Shown: positions 29,909-49,460 of the stretch, piece by piece
Layout of the letters: each line of letters opens with the position of its first letter
Numbering within the stretch: the stretch's first letter is position 1
Source: Sipunculus nudus
Taxonomy: Eukaryota; Annelida; Sipuncula; Golfingiida; Sipunculidae
Assembly: GCA_026874595.1 (NCBI GenBank)
Contig: CM049322.1
Span: forward strand, 41,472,840 to 41,536,839
Direction of reading: 5' to 3'
DNA: 64,000 nt
Program-made: the position numbers and the translations under genes
The notes under the pieces: generated by a model
What the model saw: only the letters and a program-made list of their open reading frames with translations
Databases searched by the model: none
What the model was told of the DNA's origin: nothing

Positions 29909-29978
29909 ATGAATATCAGAGCTGGTTTCGTTGCCCTGTTGATTTTATTTGTGAAGGAGTCAGAGGGACAGAAGAAAA
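29909..29978 (+). CDS. Exon 1: signal peptide
   Basis: The exon encodes 23 codons plus one base, MNIRAGFVALLILFV followed by KESEGQKK, a short basic n-region and a hydrophobic core with likely cleavage after SEG. The ATG has A at -3. The donor is gtgagt, phase 1. It lies 118 bp downstream of a TATA box. This start was chosen because the reading begins with a secretion signal and splices in phase to exon 2. Confidence 0.88.
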
Positions 29979-31463
29979 GTGAGTAAAAACCCAATATATA
30001 TATATGTGTGTGTGTGTGTGTATGTGTATAAATGTACGTGTGTACACTGCAAGATTAAAAGATGAAATGGTTTCTTTATAAACATGCCGATGTTACAGTG
30101 GAAACATGATATACAACGAAAACGGTTTGTAATGATAACCAGCAAATTGCTTAAATTATAATAATGCTCCATCATTTTTTTTAAATTTTGGATGTTCATT
30201 TAGTATACAAAGTGCAGGAAAAACGATATGTTACAGTTGGAAATATCTGGTAAATATCGCCCTTAGGCCGTGACATCTACTAGAAAACTAGAATGGTAAA
30301 AACGACTTAGCGGAGACAACATTTTATTATGAAAGCAGAGGTTATTTGTGATACAATAACTTAGTATTGCTAATAATCAGGCATTCAGGTGAAGCCATTT
30401 AATATTCCTAGGGAATAAGCATTTTGTGGATGCACACCGGTTTTTGTTTAATCTGAAACACGGTTATACATTGTTTTATACAATGTAACAAATATGAATA
30501 AAAATTAAACACTTTCTGATTCAACATACAATTTGGCAAATTCAAGGTACCGATTCGGCAAAGTAACGTCTTAGTTTATTGATTTGCAGTTTTGAAGATG
30601 TGAAGATGAAAATAGGTCAGCTTTTATGATGTTTTTGTTTTGTTATGATGTTTGTGTTTTGTTAAGATGTTTGTTTTTTATGATGTTTGTGTTTTTGTTA
30701 TGATGTTTGTGTTTTGTTATAAATATTTGTTTTTTTTATAATGTTTGTGATTTTGATATGATACTTACAATTTTATTATGATGTTTGCATGTTTCTTTTA
30801 ATAAGAAATATGCGGGGAAGCACCTCACAGCGACGAATGCCTTCTCCAGATTTGGGAGAAATCTGGATGTGATCCAAAAGGGACTCATGCGCCACCGAAC
30901 GGGGTATGTCGTTAACTCTTTTTAAAATGTGGCTATTTCGCAAACGAAATTGTTCAGAATATTAGTTCTGCTTTGTTCATTTTGTAGTGAACCCCATTTT
31001 ATCCATCGACAGGATTTTTTTTATCCTGTCAGAGTCACCCCGCTTGAAATTTGGATTATACTTCTCAGTTCGATGAAGCCTTATTCGCACATAAAACAGA
31101 GTCCTTGTAAACACAGCTCTCCCTTTCGTAACGTTCATACCTGGAAGGTGGGGAACCATTAGGTCTCGGGCATTTTCGAATTCGGCCCACACGAAATCGG
31201 ACCATTTCAGATCGGACCATTACGATCTCTGACCACGGGACCAACGATCTCGGACCACTTAATTTAGGGCTACTACGATCTCGGACTAGGGTTTCAGATC
31301 TATTCATGTGATGTTCTGCCTGCTGATACCGTTATGAAATGCTCGAAATTTTGTAAATAGTACCAGTGAGAATATTATACAAAGACGACCCACGCTTCCC
31401 TATAACTATATTTATAAAAAAATGAGGCATATTAGGTTGTTATATATCGACTGAGAAAACTCA

Positions 31464-31502
<39 letters not shown>

Positions 31503-31594
31503 GCTAAATGTCAAGCACTTTGAGCATCGAGAAAGAAACCTGTTCTACCTTAGCTGTATCGAGCACTAAGCTGCAAGCATTGAAACCTACTTAG

Positions 31595-31637
<43 letters not shown>

Positions 31638-31928
31638 AACATATATATGTATATATATGCACACACACATATATTCAATACAGATGTCCAAAAGGGTCAT
31701 ATGGTCGCCTTTCGCCTGTCTTTGGCAAATAATATTTCTATTTATGTCCCTTATTAAATTATAGATATATAATCCTAATAAACCTTTTCAATTATTTTAT
31801 TTCAATCATTCAAATTTTGCACGTATTGTTAAAACACATATTACTCAAACGAGTTCACTAACTATATAATGTTAGCAAATGACAGTTAAATATTAATTAG
31901 AATTAAGAAAATATGCAAAGGATAATGG

Positions 31929-31986
<58 letters not shown>

Positions 31987-34900
31987 CGAGAGAGAATGTG
32001 TGTGTGTGTTATGTTGGTAACAAGGTTTTTTTAATGTACAGACAATATGTCTCAACATGGTTTGTAGATAGCAGATATATATTTCATTATGATATCGTAA
32101 GTCCGAACGAGGTCTAAAGGAGTCCGTCATAGTTGTCCAAGGTGGTATGGAAAAGGGTCCAACATCATCGACTCTGGTGGTACGAATTTGTGTTGGCCGA
32201 GCTCGCAAAGGTCCCGGTTCTCCAGAAACCGGAAGGTGGACGTTGCTTACAGGTCTTGTCATTGTCGTCCAAAACTACAATCAGCAAATTCATGAAACAA
32301 CTTACGACAAATTGCTTTAGGTAATAAAACTAATAAAATAAGAAAGACGTAAAATAATGCAGGTTCTGAAGTCTAGTTAAACATATGCTTTCATTAAACC
32401 TCAACAAACTTTGCACTATTAACACTATTTATCTAAACTCAGCTGCTTCAAAGGTATTGACAAGAATACTGACATTATTGATTCACAGCCTGTTGACGTC
32501 TGGCGGATGATGGACAAAAAAGAACTAAGTGTTAGCATGAAGAAGTACAAGAAAAGAGCCATGAGCGGTTACGTCGATAAAGAAACCGGTACCGAATACG
32601 TGACCCTCTGTTACGGAAAAGAGGGAGGTGAGATGACTGTTTTATAGATGACACGAAAGAGATAAAAGGAGGATCTTTAAAACATGGTTTATTATTATAC
32701 ATCATGATCGTATCAGTTTATGGTAAACTATCGTGACACTATTGTATTTCCTTAGTATCGTGAGATGTAAAGATCAGTGGATTTCTGTTTTCTTTGAAGT
32801 AGGGTCTGCAGGATCCAGCTTCATCCTTTTGGTCCTACAGATAAATATACGAGCGTCCTGTTGGACACTTGCCCATCCAGTAGTTTGTATCCGAAAAAAG
32901 ATTTCAAGCATGATAGATGCATACTCCCGCATTCCTGGAAGAAGTGTAAAAAGTAAGGTTGTGGTGTAAGACACAGGCCTTTGTAAACTAGACGCATACA
33001 CCAGAAAGTTAAAAGGACATAACTTTACCAAAATTCAAGGAGGCGCTGTATACTTATCTAGTTGTCCGATTCATGTTAGCCATTGTGAATGAAGATTGCT
33101 CTACAATTACAGGCAACAGAGAAAAGACAGTAGAAAACAAGGCTCGCATTTAATATCGTTCTAATCACCTTTCTTTTAACAGTAAGACAAAATAATAAAA
33201 GCATCCTTCGAGCTCAAATGCAGTTTGAAGCTCTCTGTGTAGCTTTGTCTTCATAGCCACGATATATATTGGACCGTGGAGTCTGTAATACGCATGATTA
33301 TCGTGTTGGTGTACTAACTAAATAGTGTCATGAGTGAGGCAGAGCCGATTAACAGAGATAAGCCTGTTCGAGTCGGTCAGCTTTATTTTCGAATGTGAGC
33401 GCTTCATTGGCTACACATCGTTTAGTCGAGGGAGGATTTGGTGTTTTTTGGCCCTATCACTACACTTTGCCACTGTTGTTACACAGCTTCCTCGGTACTG
33501 TTACTTTTTTAGAATAATTTATCAAGTTTATGTTGATGTAACAAAGATTAAACTCTTCACAAGTATATTGGAAGTAAATAACCTAGTAGTACCCCCATTT
33601 TCACTAAAATACCCCATAATTTTAAGGGTTTACAAAGGGAGGTTTTACCTTAATTACGGGTAAAATGCAATTGATGTTTATTTTATGAACACATAGCATT
33701 TGATTAACCCTTTACTGTTTACAGGCCACTAAGGAGCACTAGGAAAGGGCAACTAGAATGCCGTGATATATATAGAATTTTTCAGGACAAAAATATTGCA
33801 TATAATTTTAAAGTTTCAATGATTTTCAATAATCTTCAGCAAACCCTCTTAGTGGAAACTGTTGAAAATTTGATAAAGATACAAAAAAGCTTGAAAAGAT
33901 ATTGCGGTTAGTGTAAATTTAAATAGTGTCAGTATTTGTCGGAAATCTTAAATGAATGTAAACAGGAAAGAGTTAAGGCATTAAAAGTGAAAAATTCCTT
34001 TGTATACTAGTATTCTTGTACATTTGAGGGGATTGCCAACGAGAAAATATTACGTATCACTGCGTTTAGCTGAAATATGATTAAAGTTCAATGTATAATC
34101 GAAAAGACATATCTAAATCGTTCAACATTTCAATACTTGATGGCGCTCAGAAGCAAGCGAGGTAGTTACGGTAAATAACAAAAATTGTGTTCGTTGTCGT
34201 GGCTGGAACCATCTGGTGATTACGCGAGGACTGCAACTCGTTTTGTATGAAGAGAAAGAAAGGTGTGTTTAAAATATTACCGTTTTGAATACTGTACTTT
34301 GTATTTTAAGGGAACTGCGGTCCAAAATCTGCGCCTGGTCCTCACACACTCAGTTGTCTTCAACAGATGTGGAAGGAAGCCAAATGTTTTGTAACAGGAA
34401 CAGGGTATCCCGTACTTGGGCCGGTAAGTATTGTTACATGCAGTTTTAACGAGCTAAAGATTCGATAAGATTCCAAGATAAAGTGATTGGTCGCTGGTAA
34501 ACTATTAGTAAAGCAATTAAAATTATCATGAAAATTGATGTCATGATTCTTATAATAGTGTCATAAGAGTGCTTGATGGTTGATGTTATGAACGGATTAA
34601 TACCGATAAACATAAGTTAATAATGAATGACACTTGTGAAACCCTTGTTTTGCAGACATATTCTTCTATGTCTGAAAAGAAGCCATAAGGTTCTTGGAAA
34701 CGATTTATTTGGATATCTAATCTCCGGATTATTTTAAATCCTAGATTGATTTTCATGCAATCACAAGCGATCCTCGAAAATATAATTTAACAGTCAGAAA
34801 TGATCTCAATTTGACTTAGAAAGCAAGATAACAATTCGTACACGAAATTTAGTGCATTTTTTGTACAACTTTTAAATGCAGAAGCATTTACAAATTAATT

Positions 34901-37900
34901 TTTGAAAAGGTAGTAAAGCAAGTGAGTAACCAAGTAACCAGCAAAACTAGTGCATTTGATCAAATGAGTGGACCATTTGAAAGAACACACAATAAACTTT
35001 GAACAATGAAGAAATTACCACTATTTGCTATTAATATAAACAAGATAGTTGGCATATAAACATAAAATGTATTCGTCACTGTGGAACCTTTGTTTTCGTA
35101 ACATGAGGGGGAAAAGGGTACCAATTCCTTTATGTAACTCTCATCACGTGCTACAGAATTCTAATAATATTCATATTTGATGGCGTGTTGTACATGTTTA
35201 CAATAAAAAAAAAGGGGCTTACGATTTCACGCTTCACTCCTTATTTTTCAGAAAGTTAAGTACTGGAACAGTATGCCGGTAGGTAAAGTACGCCGTGAAA
35301 TGAGGGCGATCAAAAAGAAAGCTTTGAACCAGAAAGTAGACAAAACAGGCGAACCCTTCGTCCAAATATGTTACGGTAAGTACCTTCCCTTTGAAACACC
35401 ACTCCTCTTCACTGATGTCCGGCAAGTAGCAGGCATATCTAATTTGTGCTGTTTGATAAATATTCAGTTTGCCTCTTTTGTGTGTTTTCCTTTACCAATA
35501 ATTCATTCGTTGCTTTGAATTGATTCGCTTCTGGAAACTTAACCTGGGATCCATTAGATCCACACGATACACACCGTGGGCATATATGTATCCATAAGCA
35601 GAGACATGTTTGATGTTGATTAACTCTCCCAAAATTTGTATGAAAGAAAATGAAGAAATGTATTTTGTTTATGATGATACTGATAGTCTATTCAAATAAC
35701 TACTGTAAATAATGTTTACTTTTACAAAATGATCCGTACGAAAATCAGAATATTGGACAGACGACAATTAGAGGAAATTCTTGTACATTACCGGCAGATA
35801 AGGTGAGAGATAAGATGAAATTTATTTTAAATCTGTGTACGGGTAACATACACATATATATATCAATATTTTGCTCTACGACATCTCCCCGACGATGAAT
35901 CCTTTTATTCAAGAATTTATTTTTTGGCGATAATTTGAAACCCATGCGAACGAAAAATCAATCACAGTTTGTACAACTTTAACGTCAAATGTATCATCTT
36001 ACATATCGAATTATTTGTTTGCTCATTATACCCTGTTCTGTTGTATACGTCTTAAATTTCAGGATGTGGCATCAGTAACCACATGGACGAATTCATATAT
36101 CTCGGAAGTGATGTAACGGATCCACAACGCTGGCCATGGGCGGTGAGTTGTTGAACTTTTCATGAAAATTTCTGATTTGCTTTGAGTTTTGCATCTTAAA
36201 ATGTTTCCTTCTCTGCAGCATATTGTAATACTACATAGTATTTTATTATTTATGTGGTCAGAGCGACGTGAAAAGATATGTTTGATAAGCTGGGTGAAAA
36301 GGTTGAAGGATTAAAAGTGCATGGAGTACCCATGATTGTAAAGAAATATGAATTTAAATTATTAAAAATTGGGTTAATTACAGTATTGTTTTCTTTCTAT
36401 GGATTAAAGGAATTAAAAGGATTGGATTTCACGAGTCTAGTTCATGTTTTGTTTTTTAAACAGAACCTTTACATTGATGTGATAAAAGGAAATTAAAAGA
36501 ATAAAATATACTTTTTTCTGTCTATTAATTTGTGTTTAGAATTTCTTAAAAATTTGATAATTTTATTTAATTTAGGAGCATATATTTTTAAATAAACACA
36601 TATAATAGACAGTACCAAAAAAAATATTGGTAATAACGCCGATCCAATCCGTCATAATCCCTATTTACAAATATAAAAGTATTTATTCAAAAGAATACAA
36701 ACTCAGTGATATTAAAACCCAGTATGTAATCATATTTTCATCATATCAATAAATTGATAAGGTTGTGATTTTATTGAATAATTTACAGGTATCAATTTAT
36801 TCTGACAACGGACTTGAATGCAACGGGGCTATACTAAGTCCTAAATGGGTCCTGACAGGGGCTGATTGCCTGTATAAGTAAGTAACAAAGTGGAACGCAC
36901 ACACACACACACATATAATAGTTGTGTGCAAATTCATAAATTATAGCGATTATACCGATATGATATTCCTAATCTTTCAGATATATTAGAAGGCTGAAAC
37001 AGCATTACAACTTTACCTTGTACTGCGAATAAATATAAACAGCCCCTACATTAGCTTGACCTTTCAGCGTGATTTACACGTTAGACTGAGTTATCTCGTT
37101 CATTATGTTAGGTATAATTCTATTGATCATACTTTACTATAAAATAGGTAATACATACTATAATCGATTAATAATCGATCATGGGTCTTTCTTTTACCTT
37201 GTTGAAGAGAAGTGAACTAACACACACATATATATACAGTGATTTAAGATTAGAGACCGAATCGACTTTTCCAGGAATTTGAAATGGGACTTTGATACGA
37301 CGGGTGTATGACTTGGACATTTACTCATATTCAGAGGTTTTGGTCTAATCCAGTTCTCGTCAAGTTTAAAATAAACATATATCACTTGGGTTCTCCCGGA
37401 AAGTAGCCTACCGACACATCATAAGCGCATCACTTTAAGGGGAATATTTTGAGAAAATAAAGTTTGGACCTCCTATGTTTTAAACTTTAAAGTCTTAAAT
37501 TTCTATACATGGGCGTGGCTAGGAAAGTTAACTGTAGGATTTTCTATATATTGCAGCATGTTGAGCAAATTCATAGCCTTTTGAATAGGTAAATACCAAG
37601 GGGTCTCAGACCAGAAGTTTATAAAGTATTAAAAAGCTATTAACATAAACTTAATGTTTAATATTACTCGATATACAGTGTTTCAATCCTTTAGGTATAT
37701 ATATATATATGCCAGTATTTTGTTATGAAACCATTTGCTTACTTCCGCACAAAACTAAAAAATTCTTGCACCAAGCGCGATCAGTGATGTAATATATAGA
37801 CCCAGTGCGCACGTCACCAAGCCCTCCACGATCGACTTTACATCAATTCTTTACAAGCTTCTCTCCGGTGTTTCTTCCTTTATGCCACCTCCTAATTTGG

Positions 37901-40900
37901 TAATTGTCAGTTTTGCGCAAGACTGGACTTCTGGAGGTGCAGTTTTGTTATGGTAATCAGACTCGCATGGACTGCATTTACCCACATGCTGAAAAATAAC
38001 GTATGAAATATATGTAAAATGGGAAGACAAAGTCCACGGGCGGGATGGGTTTGTTAGTAAATCTTCGTATTCTGCCAAGTGAAGTAATTGCTATTGATAA
38101 CGCACATGTGAAATGCAATTGTTTATGTACCTTAAAGGAAAATCTGAATCAAAGATTATAAATAGAAGTCACACGAATCTATTTCGAGTCATATTTTTTC
38201 GTCGTTTACGACAGACCGATTTATGTCGTTTAACGAAACACGGCACCTCCATCTTTCCAAAGTGCAGCAATGTAATTAAATATATAATTTCCTGTGATAT
38301 CTGATAATTCTGGTATTTTTATTTGTTACTTGTATAATTTGTATAATAAATACAAATGCAATGTGCCTTAACTTTAGTTCTTACTTAACGCTAATTAGAC
38401 AGTTCAGAGACCTCCAACGTCAGAGAATAGCTATAAGAGGACGACTGCTTTGAATGTACACACGCGCTAATATACACACGTATATATAATGTACATGTAT
38501 GATTATATTTATCAGTATATATATGTGTATATATATATATATTAATTTATCTAACTTGCTTTTTTTAACTGAAATCTCATGTAGAGGGTACTTAAGGTGA
38601 TATCCGCCCTATTTTTCTCTGAAATGCAATAAAATTCATCTGCAAGATGTGTATTGTGAGGTTCTTGCTACATTGCGAGGGAATAAACGTTGAAGGTTAA
38701 AGCCGTTAATTATAACAACATGGATAATGCATTCCTAAATTATCCTACCATGTTATTATTTGGGGATTTATTTTCCGTTCTCCGTTTTGCCACCAGATTT
38801 TCTAAGTAGAAATATTGTCGAGTTCAGCTGTCCTCGCATTCCTTCCGGGTTCTAACCGAAACCAAAAAGTTTTATTTCTCCCAGTTTTTTTTTGGGTGGC
38901 CATTTTGCGTTTACACAAAAACACAGGGGTCTCAGTTCGCGTGTCGAAATTACGGATATACCGCTTGTAAATATGTATTATCTTTTTTCTACTCCAGTGA
39001 CGAAGCTGGCGATCTCACCGTTCGTATGGGCGTGGTAGACATTTCTGGGGACGGTCCGGAACCAGTTCTGTCAGGGGTACAACGCATCATAACTCACGAA
39101 GACTATGAGTCCGTTGGGAGTCCTTTCAAGTAAGACATTTGTCATATAGTGAATATAGAGTGGTGAAGAGAAGGTATAAAGATATTGCGAGCTTATGTTT
39201 CATGACTGCACGCTAAGAAAAAAGGGTTCCAGCTGGAACCAAAAGGGGTTCTTTAGAGTGGACTGAGTGGGAAACCTTTCAAGGGTCTTTTTGAAATCTC
39301 CCGAGGGTTCTTTTATGGAACTTGTAAGGTTCCATCTAGAACCTATTCAGAGGTTCTGAGAGGAACCATTCCAGGTGATGGACTGAACAGAGAACCTTGA
39401 AAGGTTCTTGGGGTAACCCGACGTGTCAGGTTCTTTATAATCATACGTTTAGCATACATTAATCACACCTCATATATATATATATGTAGTAATTGGCTGT
39501 TTAAAATGGAATATGTATAGCAAACGGCTGTTACATATATGTTGAATTAACAGTTTTTATTACCATAATCTGCTTTGAATTTGTACCATGTTGACCCAAG
39601 TTTCAAGGGGTCATTTTTTATTTATCAATAATGATATGTTATAAATGCAGTCCAGGTATATGGGTGTTGTTGAGCCCTTGCCCTCTTGCACATAATGGTT
39701 AAAAGTTCAAATTGTTCGTCGGCTTAATGACGATTGACGATTAGTGTATTTGAGATCTGGTTGTGCGAGTCCACGATTGGTCACACTGTACCAGGCATTA
39801 TGGTCATTATACACTGTTTATAAACCATGTATATATACAGCCGCTTACTATATATGTTCCACTGACAAAGAAGGTCTAAGCTTCGAAAGCTCGTGAATGA
39901 AACACTAAGGCGTCCACACCTATAAACAATAATGTTTTCTGAATGTTCCCGAAATATAATTTACACGATAACCTTTAATTCACAGGAACCGTATTCAATT
40001 TACACAAAACATATTAAAAAGTAAGTTACATGAATTTTTTACAACGGTATATTAACAGAAAGAATACGTACTAGTCCTTATTCCCATGTTTACCTTATAA
40101 TATTCATTACCTTTCTTTCAAACTATTTGAGGCCTCCTTATACTAAGGTGGTTAACATAGACAAAAATTGCTTTTATTTTGCTTTGTGACCCACAATTAA
40201 ATGTGCAAAGGTAACACATGTTATGATTGAGAAATAACTAGCAATGTTAAATATTCACTCTTCCTTCTTTATTTGCATTCTTGCTTAACATAAAGATGTT
40301 TCGGGTTCCTGCAAAGAGAGAGAATGAATGGGTGACCTAAATATATCCTATACTTGGTAAAAATTAATCACTGCACATCAGGTTAATTTTAGAACGCCGT
40401 CAACGAATGAGTAATTAAGCGTGACCATGCCACGAGAGACTGTTTTGTCCTTATACGTTTTGAAAACCCCAATACTAAAGTTTCTAAAACTTAAATATAA
40501 TTTTTTTTGTTTGCATTTGAATACAATGATACACATGATTACGATCATTACACAATGTATACTGAATAAGTAATCATATCTTATTCTTTTAAATGTATTT
40601 GTGGAATTCCTCCTATTCAGATGAAGATACAGACATAACAATCTTAGAATTTTGCTTTGTGATACACACTTCCAAGAGGATTATTAACACTTGACACGTT
40701 TTAATTAAGGAATAACTCAGGTATAACCAACCAAATTAAATTCATCATTAAATTAAAATCCTTTCAAATGAAAACAAAATCTTTCTTCTTGTTCATTTGC
40801 ACTCTTGCTAGCCATGGAAATGTATCGGGTTACTGCAAAGAGAAATAACGGAGAGATGACATAAAAAGAAAATCATACTAAATCAATATAACACCAAATT

Positions 40901-42561
40901 ATTAGGAGAACACTTTCAGTTAATGTGTAATTTAGTATGACCAATCATTGACAGAGTTCGTGTTGTTCCTCAAGCCCATGTGATGAAAACCCCCAAGTGA
41001 ACAGTTTTCAAAACAATGCTCCAATATTTCGCATCAACTCGTTATACGGATAATAGGCTTGGCGATGTGTTTTTAGTCCTATATAAAAGAAAAATGATTT
41101 GAAGGACAAATTAAAGAAAGCACTTAGGATAGAGAAATACTGTAAACAATATATACAGGGTGTTATGAATGCATTTGATGTAAAGTCGTCTGGCTTGTTT
41201 AGTTTCAATCACTGAAGCCGCATTATAATTTTGTATAATTTGTTTGCTTGATGGATTTATGGATTCTTTTTACGAAAAAAGAGGACCTTCATGTGGTTTT
41301 TTTTAATAGAGGCACGGGGAGCCTCTTATTCTAAGAGTGCGAGTTAAAATGCTTTTGGGAGTTCAAGCAATTAATAATTTACAAACCTTGATATGCTTTA
41401 TTAAAACGTGTAGTTTCGTTTTCATTATTTTTTTTGTCATTTTAGGTATCTTTTTCTGTCATTGGTTTAATCTTCCCGTATTTACCTGATTTTAAAATAA
41501 AGGTTAAAGTCGCAACAAGTGAAACAGTTGAGATATAAATAAAATCTTAAATAAAAAGGTTAGCTTAAGTATAATTTGATGTAGCATTTCTTGCAAATAT
41601 CCCTGTATTAACTTAATGCAGAAAACGTTTTAAGTTCATAGTAGTACAAATAAATACAATATCATATTACTCTTAGTACAGATTCTTTATGATGATACAC
41701 GTCTTTATTAAATTTACAATCATTTTCAAATGACATAAGTAACCAGTAACATCGAATTGCTTTTCAGTCAGTTATTTACAAACTACATGACAGTACACTA
41801 AATCGTTCTTGCTTATTAATTAATATTTTTGATGCAAGAAAATAAAAGAAAATTTCATTTTTCAAAAGATAACATCTTATATAAATATGTTGTATATAGA
41901 ATTTCTGTTTACTGATTGATTAAGGGTCATTCATGACATGGCGTTGCTGGAGCTCACTGAAGAGGTTGAGCTGGGACAAACTATCAGACCAATATGTCTA
42001 CCAAGACCAGGTGGCAAATCATACAACAAGTGTCACGCGGCAGGCTGGGGAATAACAGAAACCGATGGTAAGACAAGCCATTGTTGTAAATGAAAATTTC
42101 TTTTGAATCAAATCAGCGAAAGATAAGAAAAATATTGAGTAAACGAATAAGAAGGAGGTGATATGTCAATCAAGAAAAGTATCTGACTAGGGGTTCAGAA
42201 ATTAGTATGAAAGTTCCCTGTACTGCTTTTATAAAATATTAAAGGCTCATTAGTTTAACCAGTTAATTTTTATGTTTTAGTCACAAACTAGCCTTGGGGT
42301 ACATAACAACAAATTTTTACCAGTATGAAAAAAATATGGCATGACCTCAAAGACATGCTTAATTGCTTTAAAGATCTATTTCACAACACGGTTTCTTTTC
42401 TATGATTGACAGGATATGGGAGCGACATCTTGCAGGAACTCAAGATACAACTCGTGGATGATGATGAGTGTGGGGAAAGAACTAGACTCAGTTGGATCTC
42501 GACAGGTGGCGTTCAGTGTGGCGAAGGGGAAAGTGGAGGTAGACTATGTCATGTAAGTCAA

Positions 42562-42619
<58 letters not shown>

Positions 42620-42986
42620 TTAAATAAGTTTGACATAATCTCAATTTGAGATTTAGGGAAAACGGTTGCAACTTGGGAACTTTTAATGTTAGATTTCTGG
42701 TACAGGTGGCATTTGACAAGCTTTCAGTCATTCAAGTGTAAGCTGCATCTATTCTAGCTACATCTTCTGTCAAACGCATATAAGCAAATTTAAAAATGCC
42801 ATCAAACGGGCAATATTTTAGTTGGTCAGGTCGAGGTTCCACTCTTAGTAGTACCGCTGTCACTGACTAGACTGCAAGTCTCGTCTTGTCTCGCAACTGC
42901 GGCAATCAAACGAGAAGAAGCAAAGTTTCACGGACATGATCACGTTTTATGCTAGGGAGGTCTGGTTTTCTGCATGTTGTGGCATA

Positions 42987-43032
<46 letters not shown>

Positions 43033-43346
43033 TTTACCTAATATATATTCGTCATATCACAACCTTTTGAACAGTAATGAGGGTGTTATTGTATCGTTTC
43101 CAGCAGTCTGCTGGCTAGGACTGGTGACTATGTGACGATTACATCTTGTTATAATATAAACTTTAATTTCAGAAAGATTCTGGGGCGCCGTTGGTTTGTA
43201 TACAAGGAAAGAACGACTACTATGTTGCCGTAGGCGTCGGCAGTTGGTGGCCGAAAAAGTGCGAATCATCCAGCTATCCGCATGGCTTTGCGCAGGTGGA
43301 CGAAAAAGTGCGTTGGATCCGAGAGAAATGTAATCAGTGTAACTAA
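29909..43346 (+). CDS. Secreted serine protease homologue (S1 pseudoprotease) with two N-terminal Cys/Trp modules, 11 exons
   Basis: Eleven exons (29909-29978, 30806-30903, 32489-32627, 34311-34423, 35252-35375, 36063-36142, 36789-36877, 38998-39129, 41925-42067, 42413-42552, 43173-43346) join in frame to 433 codons plus TAA; every intron is GT-AG. Residues 1-20 form a signal peptide. Residues 24-102 and 103-181 are two related modules, each with C-x4-W-x4-C, a second Trp and a closing CYG. From about residue 194 there is a trypsin fold: WPWAV, a Cys pair around residues 219 and 235, HDMALL with Asp102-equivalent D286, GWG, and KDSGAPLVC with Ser195-equivalent S379. The His57 position reads TGADC (D234). 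Position 193 is Lys (K377), 189 is Arg (R373), 216 is Trp (W402) and 226 is probably His. The activation site has no Arg or Lys (IYLGS). It is likely a secreted, proteolytically dead regulator or binding protein; the target is unknown. No polyA signal lies close by; the first clear AATAAA is at 45554. Confidence 0.9.
30628..30790 (+). repeat. ~20-bp T/G-rich minisatellite in intron 1
   Basis: Units of about 18-22 bp built around atgatgtttgtgttttgtt recur seven or eight times with decay, ending just upstream of the exon 2 acceptor. It supplies much of the T-rich tract before that acceptor. Confidence 0.65.
30806..30903 (+). CDS. Exon 2: first half of Cys/Trp module 1
   Basis: The acceptor is tttaataag and the donor gtatgt (phase 0). 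It encodes residues 24-56 with Cys26, Cys35, Trp40 and Cys45 in the pattern C-x4-W-x4-C, followed by a Pro/Gly-rich end (APPNG). The same pattern recurs in exon 4. The pyrimidine tract before the acceptor is short, but phase and homology support it. Confidence 0.85.
31160..31305 (+). repeat. Short imperfect repeat of a 'cgatctcggaccac' motif in intron 2
   Basis: Variants of atctcggaccac and aaatcggaccat recur about six times over ~145 bp. It is more GC-rich than the surrounding intron. No coding signal. Confidence 0.5.
31470..31983. repeat. Microsatellites in intron 2: (CA)n, (AT)n, (AG)n
   Basis: (CA)n at about 31470-31494, (AT)n at 31590-31635, and a ~54-bp (AG)n at 31930-31983. All lie inside intron 2. 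Confidence 0.9.
32489..32627 (+). CDS. Exon 3: second half of Cys/Trp module 1
   Basis: Encodes residues 57-102, entered in phase 0 and left in phase 1. It starts PVDVW, has a Lys/Met-rich middle (probably helical), and ends VTLCYG before KEG. It aligns with exon 5, which starts KVKYW and ends VQICYG. The donor is gtgaga. Confidence 0.88.
34311..34423 (+). CDS. Exon 4: first half of Cys/Trp module 2
   Basis: Encodes residues 103-140, entered in phase 1 and left in phase 0 at a gtaagt donor. It carries Cys105, Cys118, Trp123 and Cys128, matching exon 2 with about five extra residues near its start (SAPGP region). The upstream AG follows a T-rich run (gtattttaag). Confidence 0.88.
35252..35375 (+). 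CDS. Exon 5: second half of Cys/Trp module 2
   Basis: Encodes residues 141-181. It begins KVKYWNSM, has a strongly basic middle and closes with QICY plus the split Gly codon. Acceptor ttatttttcag and donor gtaagt are both strong. Exons 4 and 5 together are 237 nt, exactly the combined length of exons 2 and 3. Confidence 0.9.
36063..36142 (+). CDS. Exon 6: linker and N-terminus of the S1 domain
   Basis: Encodes residues 182-208, GCGISNHMDEF, then IYLGSDVTDPQRWPWA. Counting back from the WPW motif, the position of the usual activated N-terminus (IVGG) reads YLGS and the P1 position is Ile, so no trypsin-like activation cleavage is expected. Cys183 may be the light-chain cysteine that pairs with Cys122 of the S1 domain. 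Donor gtgagt, phase 0. Confidence 0.9.
36789..36877 (+). CDS. Exon 7: S1 segment with the catalytic His replaced by Asp
   Basis: Encodes residues 209-237: VSIYSDNGLECNGAIL, then SPKWVLTGADCLY. The Cys42-Cys58 pair is present (C219, C235), and the canonical TAAHC motif reads TGADC, so the catalytic His57 is Asp234. The codon is gat; the change is visible directly in the sequence at 36864-36866. Acceptor tttacag, donor gtaagt, phase 2. Confidence 0.93.
38998..39129 (+). CDS. Exon 8: S1 segment before the catalytic Asp
   Basis: Encodes residues 238-281, including LTVRMGVVDISG and QRIITHEDYE, which match the usual strand and loop between the His and Asp motifs of S1 proteases. The acceptor has a strong pyrimidine tract (tcttttttctactccag); the donor is gtaaga. 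Entry and exit are both phase 2. Confidence 0.9.
39209..39425 (+). mobile_element. GGTTCT-rich MITE-like element in intron 8
   Basis: Starts cacgctaagaaaaaagggtt and is packed with GGTTCT, AGAACC and GGAACC motifs able to fold on themselves. The start resembles the CAC..-A-run-GGTTCT ends of CACTA-type MITEs. Only one end is clear. Confidence 0.5.
39772..40399 (+). repeat. ~625-bp dispersed repeat family B, copy 1 (intron 8)
   Basis: Near-complete match to 53734-54355. Shared landmarks include cggtcacactgtacc-type start, gtctaagcttcgaaagctcg, caaaacatattaaaaag and a final gaacgccg. By eye ~93% identical. No coding content. It is followed by a diverged partial repeat of its own right half at about 40730-40990. 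Confidence 0.85.
41925..42067 (+). CDS. Exon 9: S1 segment with the catalytic Asp
   Basis: Encodes residues 282-329. HDMALLELTEEV holds Asp286, equivalent to catalytic Asp102. RPICLP holds the Cys122 equivalent, and KCHAAGWG the Cys136 equivalent and the GWG turn. It is preceded by the longest intron (2.8 kb), which is filled with repeats. Donor gtaaga, phase 1. Confidence 0.92.
42413..42552 (+). CDS. Exon 10: S1 segment leading to the catalytic Ser
   Basis: Encodes residues 330-376. DDDEC and VQC form the Cys168-Cys182 pair, followed by GEGESGGRLCH. Cys375 is the Cys191 equivalent; Arg373 occupies the S1-specificity position 189. The ESGG within it is not the catalytic motif, which follows in exon 11. 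Acceptor tgattgacag, donor gtaagt, phase 0. Confidence 0.9.
42565..43031. repeat. Microsatellites in intron 10: (AAT)n and (AT)n
   Basis: (AAT)n at about 42565-42608 followed by ATT, and (AT)n at 42985-43031. Both lie between exons 10 and 11. Confidence 0.9.
43173..43346 (+). CDS. Exon 11: catalytic Ser segment and C-terminus
   Basis: Encodes residues 377-433. KDSGAPLVC contains Asp194 and Ser195 equivalents but has Lys in place of Gly193. GSWW puts Trp at position 216. PHGFAQV stands where PGVYTRV is usual, giving His near position 226. The protein ends VRWIREKCNQCN. The last eight codons and the TAA are the first unit of a tandem repeat that continues in the 3' flank, so this C-terminal tail may be recently altered. 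Confidence 0.9.
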   Translation, partial: KDSGAPLVCIQGKNDYYVAVGVGSWWPKKCESSSYPHGFAQVDEKVRWIREKCNQCN

Positions 43347-43970: not shown

Positions 43971-44125
43971 AATCCGGATAGGTAGGAGGCAATGTAAATT
44001 AATGCATACGGGCACATTTTGTTTTCCAAATAGGAGACTCCATGATTATATTTGTATTTACTCTTCCTATGAAAATCACACTGTGTTCACTGATGTTCAC
44101 CTGATTATTGTCCGCTGCCTCGCGG

Positions 44126-45430
44126 ATGCGGGGGACATTGATTTGGGTTTGTCTGTCTGTCTGTCTGTCTCTCTGTCCGTCCGTCAGGTTTCTTTTCCTT
44201 GCGATAACCTTGATATTATCCGATTTCATCAAATTTGGGTCAGTGATTGCTCTCATGCATACCTTGGTTGGGAAAAGTTTTGGAGTGTCTGGCTTCTGTC
44301 TGTCTGTTACTTTGTCAGTCTGTCAGGTTTTCGTTTCCGTGCAATAACTTTCCTAAATATTATCTGATTTCATCCAAATTTGGGTTAGTGATTGCTCTCA
44401 TGCATTCCTTGGTTGGGATTTGGAGTGTCTGTCTTCTGTCTGTCTGTCTGTCACTTTGTCTGTCGGTCTGTCTGGTTTTGTTTCCCTGCGATAACTTTCC
44501 TAAATATTATCCGATTTCATCCAAATTTGGACCAGTGTTTGCTCTCATACAAACCTTGGTTGGGATTGGTTTTGGAGTGTCTGGCTTCTGTCTGTCTGTC
44601 ACTTTGTCTGTAGGTCTGTCAGGTTTTCGTTTCCCTGCGATAACTTTCCTAAATTATATCCGATTTCATCCAAATTTGGATCAATGATTGCTCTGATGCA
44701 TACCTTGGTTGGGATTGGTTTTGGGGTGTCTAACTTCTGTCTCTGTGTCTGTCTTTCACTTTGTCTGTCTGTTTGTCAGGTTTTCGTTTCCGTGCAATAA
44801 CTTGCCTAAATATTATCCGATTTCATCCAAATTTTGATCAGTGATTGCTCTCATGCTTACCTTGGTTGGGATTTGTTTTGGAGTGTCTGGCTTCTGTCTG
44901 TCTGTCTGTCACTTTATCTGTTCATCCGTCAGGTTTTCATTTCCCTGCGATAACTTTCCTCAATATTATCTGATTTTAATCGGAATTTTGGTCAGACATT
45001 GCTCTCATGCATACCTTGGTTGGGATAGGTTTTGGAGTGTCTGGCTTCTGTCTGTCTGTCACTTTTTCTGTTCGTCTGTCAGGTTTTTGTTTCCCTGCTT
45101 AAACTTTCCTAAATGTTTTACGTTGTCATTCAAATTTTGGTCAGTGATTGCTCTTATACTTACCTTGGTTTGGATTTGTTTTGAGGTGTCTGGCTAATGT
45201 CTGTCTGTCTTTAACTTTGTCTGTCTGTCAGTTTGTCAGGTTTTCGTTTCTGTGAGATGACTTTCCTAAATATTATTCGATTTCATTCAAATTTTGGTCG
45301 GTGATTGCACTCATGCTTACCCTGGTTGGGATTTGTTGGAGTGTCTGGCTTCTGTCTGTCTGTCTGTCTCTCTGTCTGTCCTACCTTTATCAAGCATGAA
45401 AAACAACAAGATCCCAAAGCGGGGGACATT
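44126..45430 (+). repeat. 145-157-bp satellite with internal (CTGT)n
   Basis: Nine units. The ccttggttggg block recurs at 44262, 44407, 44554, 44703, 44860, 45014, 45163 and 45320. Each unit contains tggagtgtctggcttctgtc, a CTGT run, ttttcgtttccctgcgataa, and a tccaaatttgg..cagtgattgctct block. Both ends of the array carry gcgggggacatt. CTGT-run length explains most size variation. Short open frames are incidental. Confidence 0.9.
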
Positions 45431-47559: not shown

Positions 47560-49460
47560 AAAAGTCAAGTTGGTGGCATCTGCGAATCCGCTTGGCGACT
47601 TGGTGACGTCTGCAGTTTCCCTGTGTGACTTGATGACGTCTGCGGTTTAACTGTGTGACTTTATGACGTCTGCATTCCCACTGTGTAATTTGGTGACGTT
47701 TGCAGTTTCACTGTGTGACTTGGTGACGTCTGCAGGGTTACTGTGTGACTTGGTGACGTTTGAAGTTTAACTGTGTGACTTGGTGACGTCTGCAGTTTCA
47801 CTGTGTGACTTGGTGACGTCTGCATTCCCCCTGTGTGACTTGGTGACCTTTGCAGTTTCACTGTGTGACTTGGTGACGTCTGCGGTTTAACTGTGTGACT
47901 TGTTGACGTCTGCAGTTTCACTGTGTGACTTGGTGGCGTCTTCAGTTTCACTATGTGACTTGGTGACGTCTGCAGTTGCACTGTGTGACTTGATGACGTC
48001 TGCATTCCCACTGTGTGACTTGGTGATGTTTGTAGTTTCAATATGTGACTTGGTGACGTCTGCAGTTTCACTGTGTGACTTGGTGACGTCTGCATTCCCA
48101 TTGTGTGATTTGGTGACCTTTGCAGTTTCACTGTGTGACTTGGTGACGTCTGCGGTTTAACTGTGTGACTTGTTGACGTCTGCAGTTTTAATGTGTGTCT
48201 TGGTGACGTCTGCTGTTTCACTGTGTGACTTGGTGACGTCTGCAGTTTCACTGTGTGACTTGGTGACGTTTGAAGTTTCACTGTGTGACTTGGTGACGTC
48301 TGCAGTTTCACTGTGTGACTTGGTGACGTCTGCATTTCCACTGTGTGACTTGGTGACGTTTGCAGTTTCACTGTGTGACTTGGTGACGTTTGCAGTTTCA
48401 CTGTGTGACTTGGTGACATCTGCAGGGTTACTATGTGACTTGGTGACGTCTGCAGTTTCACTGTGTGACTTGGTGACGTCTGCATTTCCACTGTGTGACT
48501 TGGCGACCTTTGCAGTTTGCCTATGTGACTTGGTGACGTCTGCAGGGTTACTGTGTGACTTGGTGACGTTTGAAGTTTAACTGTGTGACTTGGTGACGTC
48601 TGCAGTTTCACTGTGTGACTTGGTGACGTCTGCATTCCCCCTGTGTGACTTGGTGACCTTTGCAGTTTCACTGTGTGACTTGGTGACGTCTGCGGTTTAA
48701 CTGTGTGACTTGTTGACGTCTGCAGTTTCACTGTGTGACTTGGTGGCGTCTTCAGTTTCACTATGTGACTTGGTGACGTCTGCAGTTACACTGTGTGACT
48801 TGATGACGTCTGCATTCCCACTGTGTGACTTGGTGATGTTTGTAGTTTCACTATGTGACTTGGTGACGTCTGCAGTTTCACTGTGTGACTTGGTGACGTC
48901 TGCATTCCCATTGTGTGATTTGGTGACCTTTGCAGTTTCACTGTGTGACTTGGTGACGTCTGCGGTTTAACTGTGTGACTTGTTGACGTCTGCAGTTTTA
49001 ATGTGTGTCTTGGTGACGTCTGCTGTTTCACTGTGTGACTTGGTGACGTCTGCAGTTTCACTGTGTGACTTGGTGACGTTTGAAGTTTCACTGTGTGACT
49101 TGGTGACGTCTGCAGTTCCACTGTGTGACTTGGTGACGTCTGCATTTCCACTGTGTGACTTGGTGACGTTTGCAGTTTCACTGTGTGACTTGGTGACGTT
49201 TGCAGTTTCACTGTGTGACTTGGTGACATCTGCAGGGTTACTATGTGACTTGGTGACGTCTGCAGTTTCACTGTGTGACTTGGTGACGTCTGCATTCCCA
49301 CTGTGTGACTTGGCGACCTTTGCAGTTTGCCTATGTGACTTGGTGACGTCTGCAGGGTTACTGTGTGATTTGGTGACGTCTGCAGTTTCCCTGTGTGACT
49401 TGGTGACGTCTGCAGTTTCACTGTGTGACTTGATGACGTCTGCAGGTTCAGTCGGTTACT
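47560..49460. repeat. 30-bp satellite with an 810-bp higher-order repeat
   Basis: About 63 units, consensus ctgtgtgacttggtgacgtc followed by tgcagtttca. Unit variants (ttgttgacg, gtggcgtcttcag, attccca, agggtta, agtttgc) recur in the same order after exactly 27 units (810 bp), so 47750-48560 and 48560-49370 are successive higher-order copies. Because 30 is divisible by three, frames stay open on both strands, with decapeptides SLCDLVTSAV on + and VKLQTSPSHT on -. No splice or start evidence makes it a gene. Confidence 0.95.

Follow-up and report, generated by a model that had tools for sequence, protein, structure and literature searches.

In the genome of Sipunculus nudus, two Cys/Trp modules encoded upstream of an S1 domain without its catalytic histidine are best read as representatives of a mobile extracellular module of class 1-1 that has no name and that was multiplied and shuffled into probably secreted proteins of several kinds. 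Both copies lie in the window, the whole stretch of 64,000 nucleotides that was analyzed.

Gene structure and the paired modules

Direct reading of the window yielded a gene of 11 exons on the positive strand (29909-43346), whose 434-aa product consists of a leader, the two modules, and the S1 domain (Table 1). The exon ends were picked by eye and not by a gene predictor; the introns are GT-AG, and all exons are intact, with sound splice sites and no internal stop codons. Downstream of the gene, the window contains a diverged tandem repeat with GTCTGTCTGTC and TTTCCCTGCGATAACTTTCC (44100-45420, by eye) and a minisatellite with a unit of about 30 bases (ACTGTGTGACTTGGTGACGTCTGCAGTTTC, by eye), which is open in several frames on both strands (47560-49440).

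Table 1. Exons of the window gene and gene regions fetched from elsewhere in the genome
Feature	Position	Strand	Remarks
Exon 1, start codon and signal-peptide-like segment MNIRAGFVALLILFVKESEGQKK, phase-1 end	29909..29978	+	hydrophobic leader by eye
Exon 2, module 1 N-terminal part (C1, C2-x4-W-x4-C3), phase 1 to phase 0	30806..30903	+	
Exon 3, module 1 C-terminal part (Trp codon 5, CYG), phase 0 to phase 1	32489..32627	+	
Exon 4, module 2 N-terminal part, phase 1 to phase 0	34311..34423	+	
Exon 5, module 2 C-terminal part, phase 0 to phase 1	35252..35375	+	
Exon 6, S1 start with putative activation site EF/IYLG	36063..36142	+	
Exon 7, S1 His57 region, TGADC (Asp for His)	36789..36877	+	
Exon 8, S1	38998..39129	+	
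Exon 9, S1 Asp102 region HDMALLEL (Asp kept)	41925..42067	+	
Exon 10, S1	42413..42552	+	
Exon 11, S1 Ser195 region and stop codon	43173..43346	+	CHKDSGAPLVC spans the exon 10/11 junction; residue numbers by motif
Regions with modules and S1 exons	C17 near 22.1, 4.95, and 4.91 Mb; four at C6 9.1-9.2 Mb; C12 75.9 Mb; C6 35.67 Mb		
Regions L041 and L043, no S1 exon			three and four modules; 3-4 kb downstream read
Regions L044 and L045, no S1 exon			lectin
Region L046, no S1 exon	C10:51.50 Mb		no known partner
Region L047, no S1 exon			TSP1

As described in the initial annotation, both modules carry the motif C-x4-W-x4-C, have a tryptophan as codon 5 in the second exon, and close with CYG. They also have the proposed symmetrical build: exons 2 to 5 have AG and GT ends, the phases run 1-0-1-0-1, and the internal phase-0 intron interrupts both copies at a homologous place. 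Alignment of module 1 with module 2 gave a score of 128, compared with a mean of 25 (SD, 4.9; maximum, 53) in 2000 shuffles (z = 21). The modules are therefore homologous, as the claim of a duplication implied, but other genes share the duplication: a tree of the N-terminal halves pairs each module with its own counterparts on contig C17.

Two other features did not fare as well. The equal length of 79 codons is correct in that both exon pairs total 237 nt. However, this total is reached in different ways (98 + 139 versus 113 + 124 nt), module 1 being shorter before the internal intron and carrying a KEGG linker after CYG; thus, the agreement is coincidental. The basic middle can be recognized by eye in the second exons (KKYKKRA and RREMRAIKKKA), but module 1 as a whole has a net charge of 0 (12 K+R and 12 D+E), as opposed to +10 for module 2 (14 K+R and 4 D+E).

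The module family and its partner domains

We evaluated how common the module is in the animal's own genome (1.43 Gb in 153 contigs). Module 2 as the query matched at least 142 places at E<=10, and a hand-made consensus matched at least 131 places at E<=0.01. When merged at E<=0.01, the searches gave at least 133 exon-level places, a lower bound that counts exons rather than genes and some split modules twice. These places form 70 groups (20-kb gaps) on 10 large contigs, C2, C6, C8, C9, C10, C12, C13, C15, C16, and C17. Some rows contained stop codons and may represent pseudogenes or include an intron. For closer reading, we used 20 stretches of 10 kb (corresponding to 15 gene regions), five shorter stretches, and 20 short loci. 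The consensus, CG..GPHS..CL..LW..AGC...GTGSP......V.WWN...V..V..DM..YK..AD.G.....Y..LCYG, spans about 80 residues and has four conserved cysteines.

The phases of the window introns recur in many of these copies. The best acceptor at the module start was in phase 1 in 35 of 39 cases (two were in phase 2, one was in phase 0, and one had none), and the best donor at the module end was in phase 1 in 32 of 33. Where the module is split, the internal donor was in phase 0 in 14 of 15 cases (one had none) and the internal acceptor in all 16. One-third would be expected in each case; the phases come from a simple splice-site score, and the window copies contribute two to each count. Many copies on C6, C12, and C13 have no internal intron. 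Thus, with phase-1 introns at both borders in the window and in the fetched loci, the module is a symmetrical one of class 1-1, in which the internal split is optional.

In the tree of N-terminal halves, module 1 of the window groups with the first modules of the C17 relatives and module 2 with their second modules, the latter group lying near the split last modules of C6, C12, and C13 genes. The tree of C-terminal halves is less clear, with module 2 falling beside first modules; both trees come from short alignments, and support values were not considered. In nine of nine recent module pairs, dN/dS was below 1. Omega ranged from 0 to 0.63 on C6 (eight recent module pieces and one S1 exon) and C15 (one module and one lectin exon). 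Comparisons of the window module exons with relatives gave 0.17-0.66 (three comparisons), with one comparison being saturated. These are rough Nei-Gojobori counts on short exons, with high dS between the window and its relatives. The low values indicate that the module is under constraint, and an arms-race evolution of the module is unsupported by them.

Among 65 aligned module pieces, C3 was never missing (44 of 44), and neither was C4 (36 of 36). C1 and C2 occurred together in 41 of the 43 modules that could be judged (the remaining 22 pieces were C-terminal halves or cut); the two exceptions, at C12 38.1 Mb and C12 75.9 Mb, lack both, and in no case was just one of them present. The chance of such joint loss is about 0.001 (computed for 44 modules). 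In the N-half tree, the two exceptional copies are near neighbours, next to a C13 copy with both cysteines, and may therefore share a single event; in the C-half tree they are separated. The copy at 75.9 Mb has no convincing acceptor. Since C1 and C2 were lost jointly, disulfides C1-C2 and C3-C4 are the likely pairs. A fifth cysteine is found in the C10 copies and in one C17 copy.

The modules adjoin different partners. S1 exons follow them in 9 of the 15 fetched gene regions, with two modules in the C17 genes and three in the C6 and C12 genes, and some of these S1 domains look active; the other six regions contain no S1 exon (Table 1). On C15, 31 of 36 module matches are followed on their own strand by an F-type-lectin exon at a distance of no more than 10 kb, and 5 are not; random placement within the clusters gave a mean of 4.6 and a maximum of 12 in 2000 trials. 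Two joined lectin exons matched FBP32 (9.7e-8) and the eel lectin 1k12 (0.026) in the PDB, whereas in Pfam their match to F5/8 type C (0.0013) was below the curated cut-off. A genome search with a lectin half returned 38 rows, two of them overlapping, all on C15. On C8, three TSP1 repeats (1.4e-41) with phase 1-1 exon ends are located upstream of three modules. As is expected of a shuffled module, S1, F-type-lectin, and TSP1 domains are thus all found adjacent to it. Because the exons are adjacent on one strand, modules and partners probably belong to one transcript. The combination of the module with an S1 homologue, which had been thought possibly undescribed, is present in the window but turns out to be a common architecture of a family with other members beside F-type lectin or thrombospondin domains.

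Several regions have peculiarities of their own. C15 carries a large family of module and F-type-lectin genes at 58.35-59.43 Mb and 26.2-26.7 Mb. In L046, two modules are about 2 kb apart, the second being frame-broken, and the frames between them contain His/Pro/Thr-rich repeats, such as QDNHPAITETPPGQSPRHHENPTRT, which may or may not be coding; a search for known domains in this region found none.

The assembly also contains ten HtrA/DegP-like frames of equal length (525 aa) and score on contigs C61, C62, C64, C65, C66, C69, C72, C75, and C89. The piece from C64 is 59-60% identical to two Spirochaetota MAGs, the best two of 13 matches; hence, a spirochaete-like bacterium, perhaps as several strains, seems to be represented in the assembly.

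In Pfam, the two window modules and five further queries remained below the curated cut-off, and 17 alignment members gave three single-member matches (best E, 0.052). An NCBIfam match to a HAD-IB phosphatase (0.0045, two of the 17 members), the best PHROGs match (0.042), the best PDB profile match, to an insulin-mimetic peptide (0.18), and the only matches in a PADLOC search for a family covering the module were all judged to be chance. PDB sequence searches with the modules returned nothing convincing. The clip domain was sought by profile in the whole protein and in the modules, with only Trypsin and sub-threshold matches resulting. The consensus had no relative in viral_contigs or genome_contigs, a search that reaches close relatives only, and no earlier description of the module was found in those parts of open-licence PMC papers that were available to a word search, which a nameless module can escape. 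In the absence of a convincing match in Pfam, NCBIfam, PHROG, PADLOC, or PDB, the module can be called, within the scope of these libraries, a mobile extracellular module with no name. With at least 133 exon-level uses in one animal, it leaves a class of probably secreted proteases, pseudoproteases, and lectins hidden from annotation.

No named Pfam domain thus covers the modules, and copies with matching intron phases are present elsewhere in the genome, the two points on which the initial annotation had rested its case. Its observation of a shuffled module is confirmed, and its interpretation is partly supported.

The S1 domain and the possible roles of the modules

The S1 domain of the window matches Trypsin (PF00089) with an E value of 2.4e-38 over protein residues 197-426 and profile positions 4-220 of 220. 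Asp102 (HDMAL) and Ser195 (KDSGAP) are kept, whereas His57 is replaced by Asp (TGADC; residue numbers by motif), and Lys takes the place of the oxyanion-hole Gly193. The domain therefore lacks the full triad of an active S1 protease, and the term pseudoprotease, used in the initial annotation, is sound. Other module-bearing genes have either state: L035 (TAAHC, HDVAL, GDSGGPL) and L039 (TAAHC, NDVAL, GDSGGPL) look active, and L031 (TSSGC) and L034 (TSVYN and DGG) are dead. L034 (C17:4.965-4.975 Mb) comprises two copies about 7 kb apart, with a frame break in exon 9 of the second.

Ile16 and Asp194, the zymogen-activation pair of S1 proteases, are kept in the window domain. The residue before IYLG is Phe, as it is at the putative activation site of the C17 relatives L030 (ASF/IVGG) and L035 (DRF/IAGG); Val, Ile, or Lys is found there in the C6 and C12 genes. 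Trypsin-activated cascades usually have Arg or Lys at this position, and the scarcity of these residues counts against the cofactor reading set out below. We infer that the putative site before IYLG is still cut.

The most likely reading, and a moderately probable one, is that the modules make up the non-catalytic N-terminal part of a serine protease homologue (SPH) acting as a cofactor or scaffold. The protein would be secreted as a zymogen-like precursor, cut after the Phe that precedes IYLG, and would then work without proteolysis, its modules docking to partner proteins or surfaces as in insect clip-domain SPH cofactors. The setting may be a humoral network, possibly immune, that also includes active module-bearing proteases and lectins. 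A doubtful extension of this reading makes the module an undescribed, lineage-expanded adaptor domain through which active proteases, dead cofactors, F-type lectins, and TSP1 proteins would assemble, an arrangement that would have evolved independently of its counterparts, the clip cascade of arthropods and the lectin-complement pathway of vertebrates. If S1 proteases of this lineage use the module as their non-catalytic regulatory domain, it would give direct access to extracellular protease cascades in animals other than arthropods and vertebrates.

The lectin exons on C15 and the TSP1 repeats on C8 also suit a tentative alternative, in which the modules recognize ligands (glycans or microbes) and the dead S1 domain serves just to carry them or to provide a second binding surface, the protein resembling a pattern-recognition molecule or opsonin rather than a cascade cofactor. 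The large tandem expansions of the module, of a kind common among recognition genes, are consistent with it; however, selection in the nine recent pairs is purifying and not positive, and three-module genes with an intact-looking triad, such as L039, point to a regulatory role. That the modules are a diverged copy of a named small disulphide domain missed by sequence profiles is unlikely; short cysteine-rich domains do erode quickly, but the best scores in Pfam, NCBIfam, PHROGs, and the PDB profiles argue against it.

We regard as quite unlikely that the modules are a propeptide-like inhibitor or a targeting segment of digestive or gamete proteases with no immune role, the window copy being a decaying duplicate. 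Their position upstream of S1 in the 9 of 15 fetched regions with S1 exons fits this explanation, and a reproductive setting is possible because, according to PMC5712786, oyster F-type lectins are also sperm bindins. Decay, however, is hard to reconcile with 11 intact, stop-free exons and with the omega values of the window module exons, and the loss of His57 is common to L031 and L034.

Comparison with known systems

Arthropod clip-domain SPHs (e.g., Drosophila cSPH35 and cSPH242) resemble the window protein in having a leader peptide, a small disulphide module N-terminal to a dead S1 domain, and, within one genome, relatives whose triad looks intact. Like them, the window protein has an S1 domain minus one catalytic residue. 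The clip domain has six cysteines; the modules described here have four, show no Pfam clip match, and number two to four per gene region. The clip domain being absent and the cysteines being different, the window protein is not a member of this group. In addition, the window module is found beside lectins and TSP1 elsewhere in the genome. PMC10540698 describes Drosophila clip-domain SPHs as forming a cofactor for prophenoloxidase activation and insect cofactor SPHs as having Gly in place of Ser195, whereas the window protein has lost His57 and has Phe before its putative activation site.

The other likenesses concern single parts of the architecture. The S1 domain matches the Trypsin family well but departs from it at His57 and Gly193. 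The C15 module regions resemble bivalve F-type lectins (oyster bindin and relatives) in having exons that match FBP32 and eel agglutinin, but no lectin domain is encoded by the window gene, and the module goes unmentioned in the passages of PMC5712786 that were consulted.

Mobile extracellular modules of class 1-1 include those of the EGF, TSP1, and CCP kind. The window module differs from these in having no named family and in the extra phase-0 intron that splits some of its copies, but it shares with them phase-1 borders, tandem multiplication, and the company of several partner domains.
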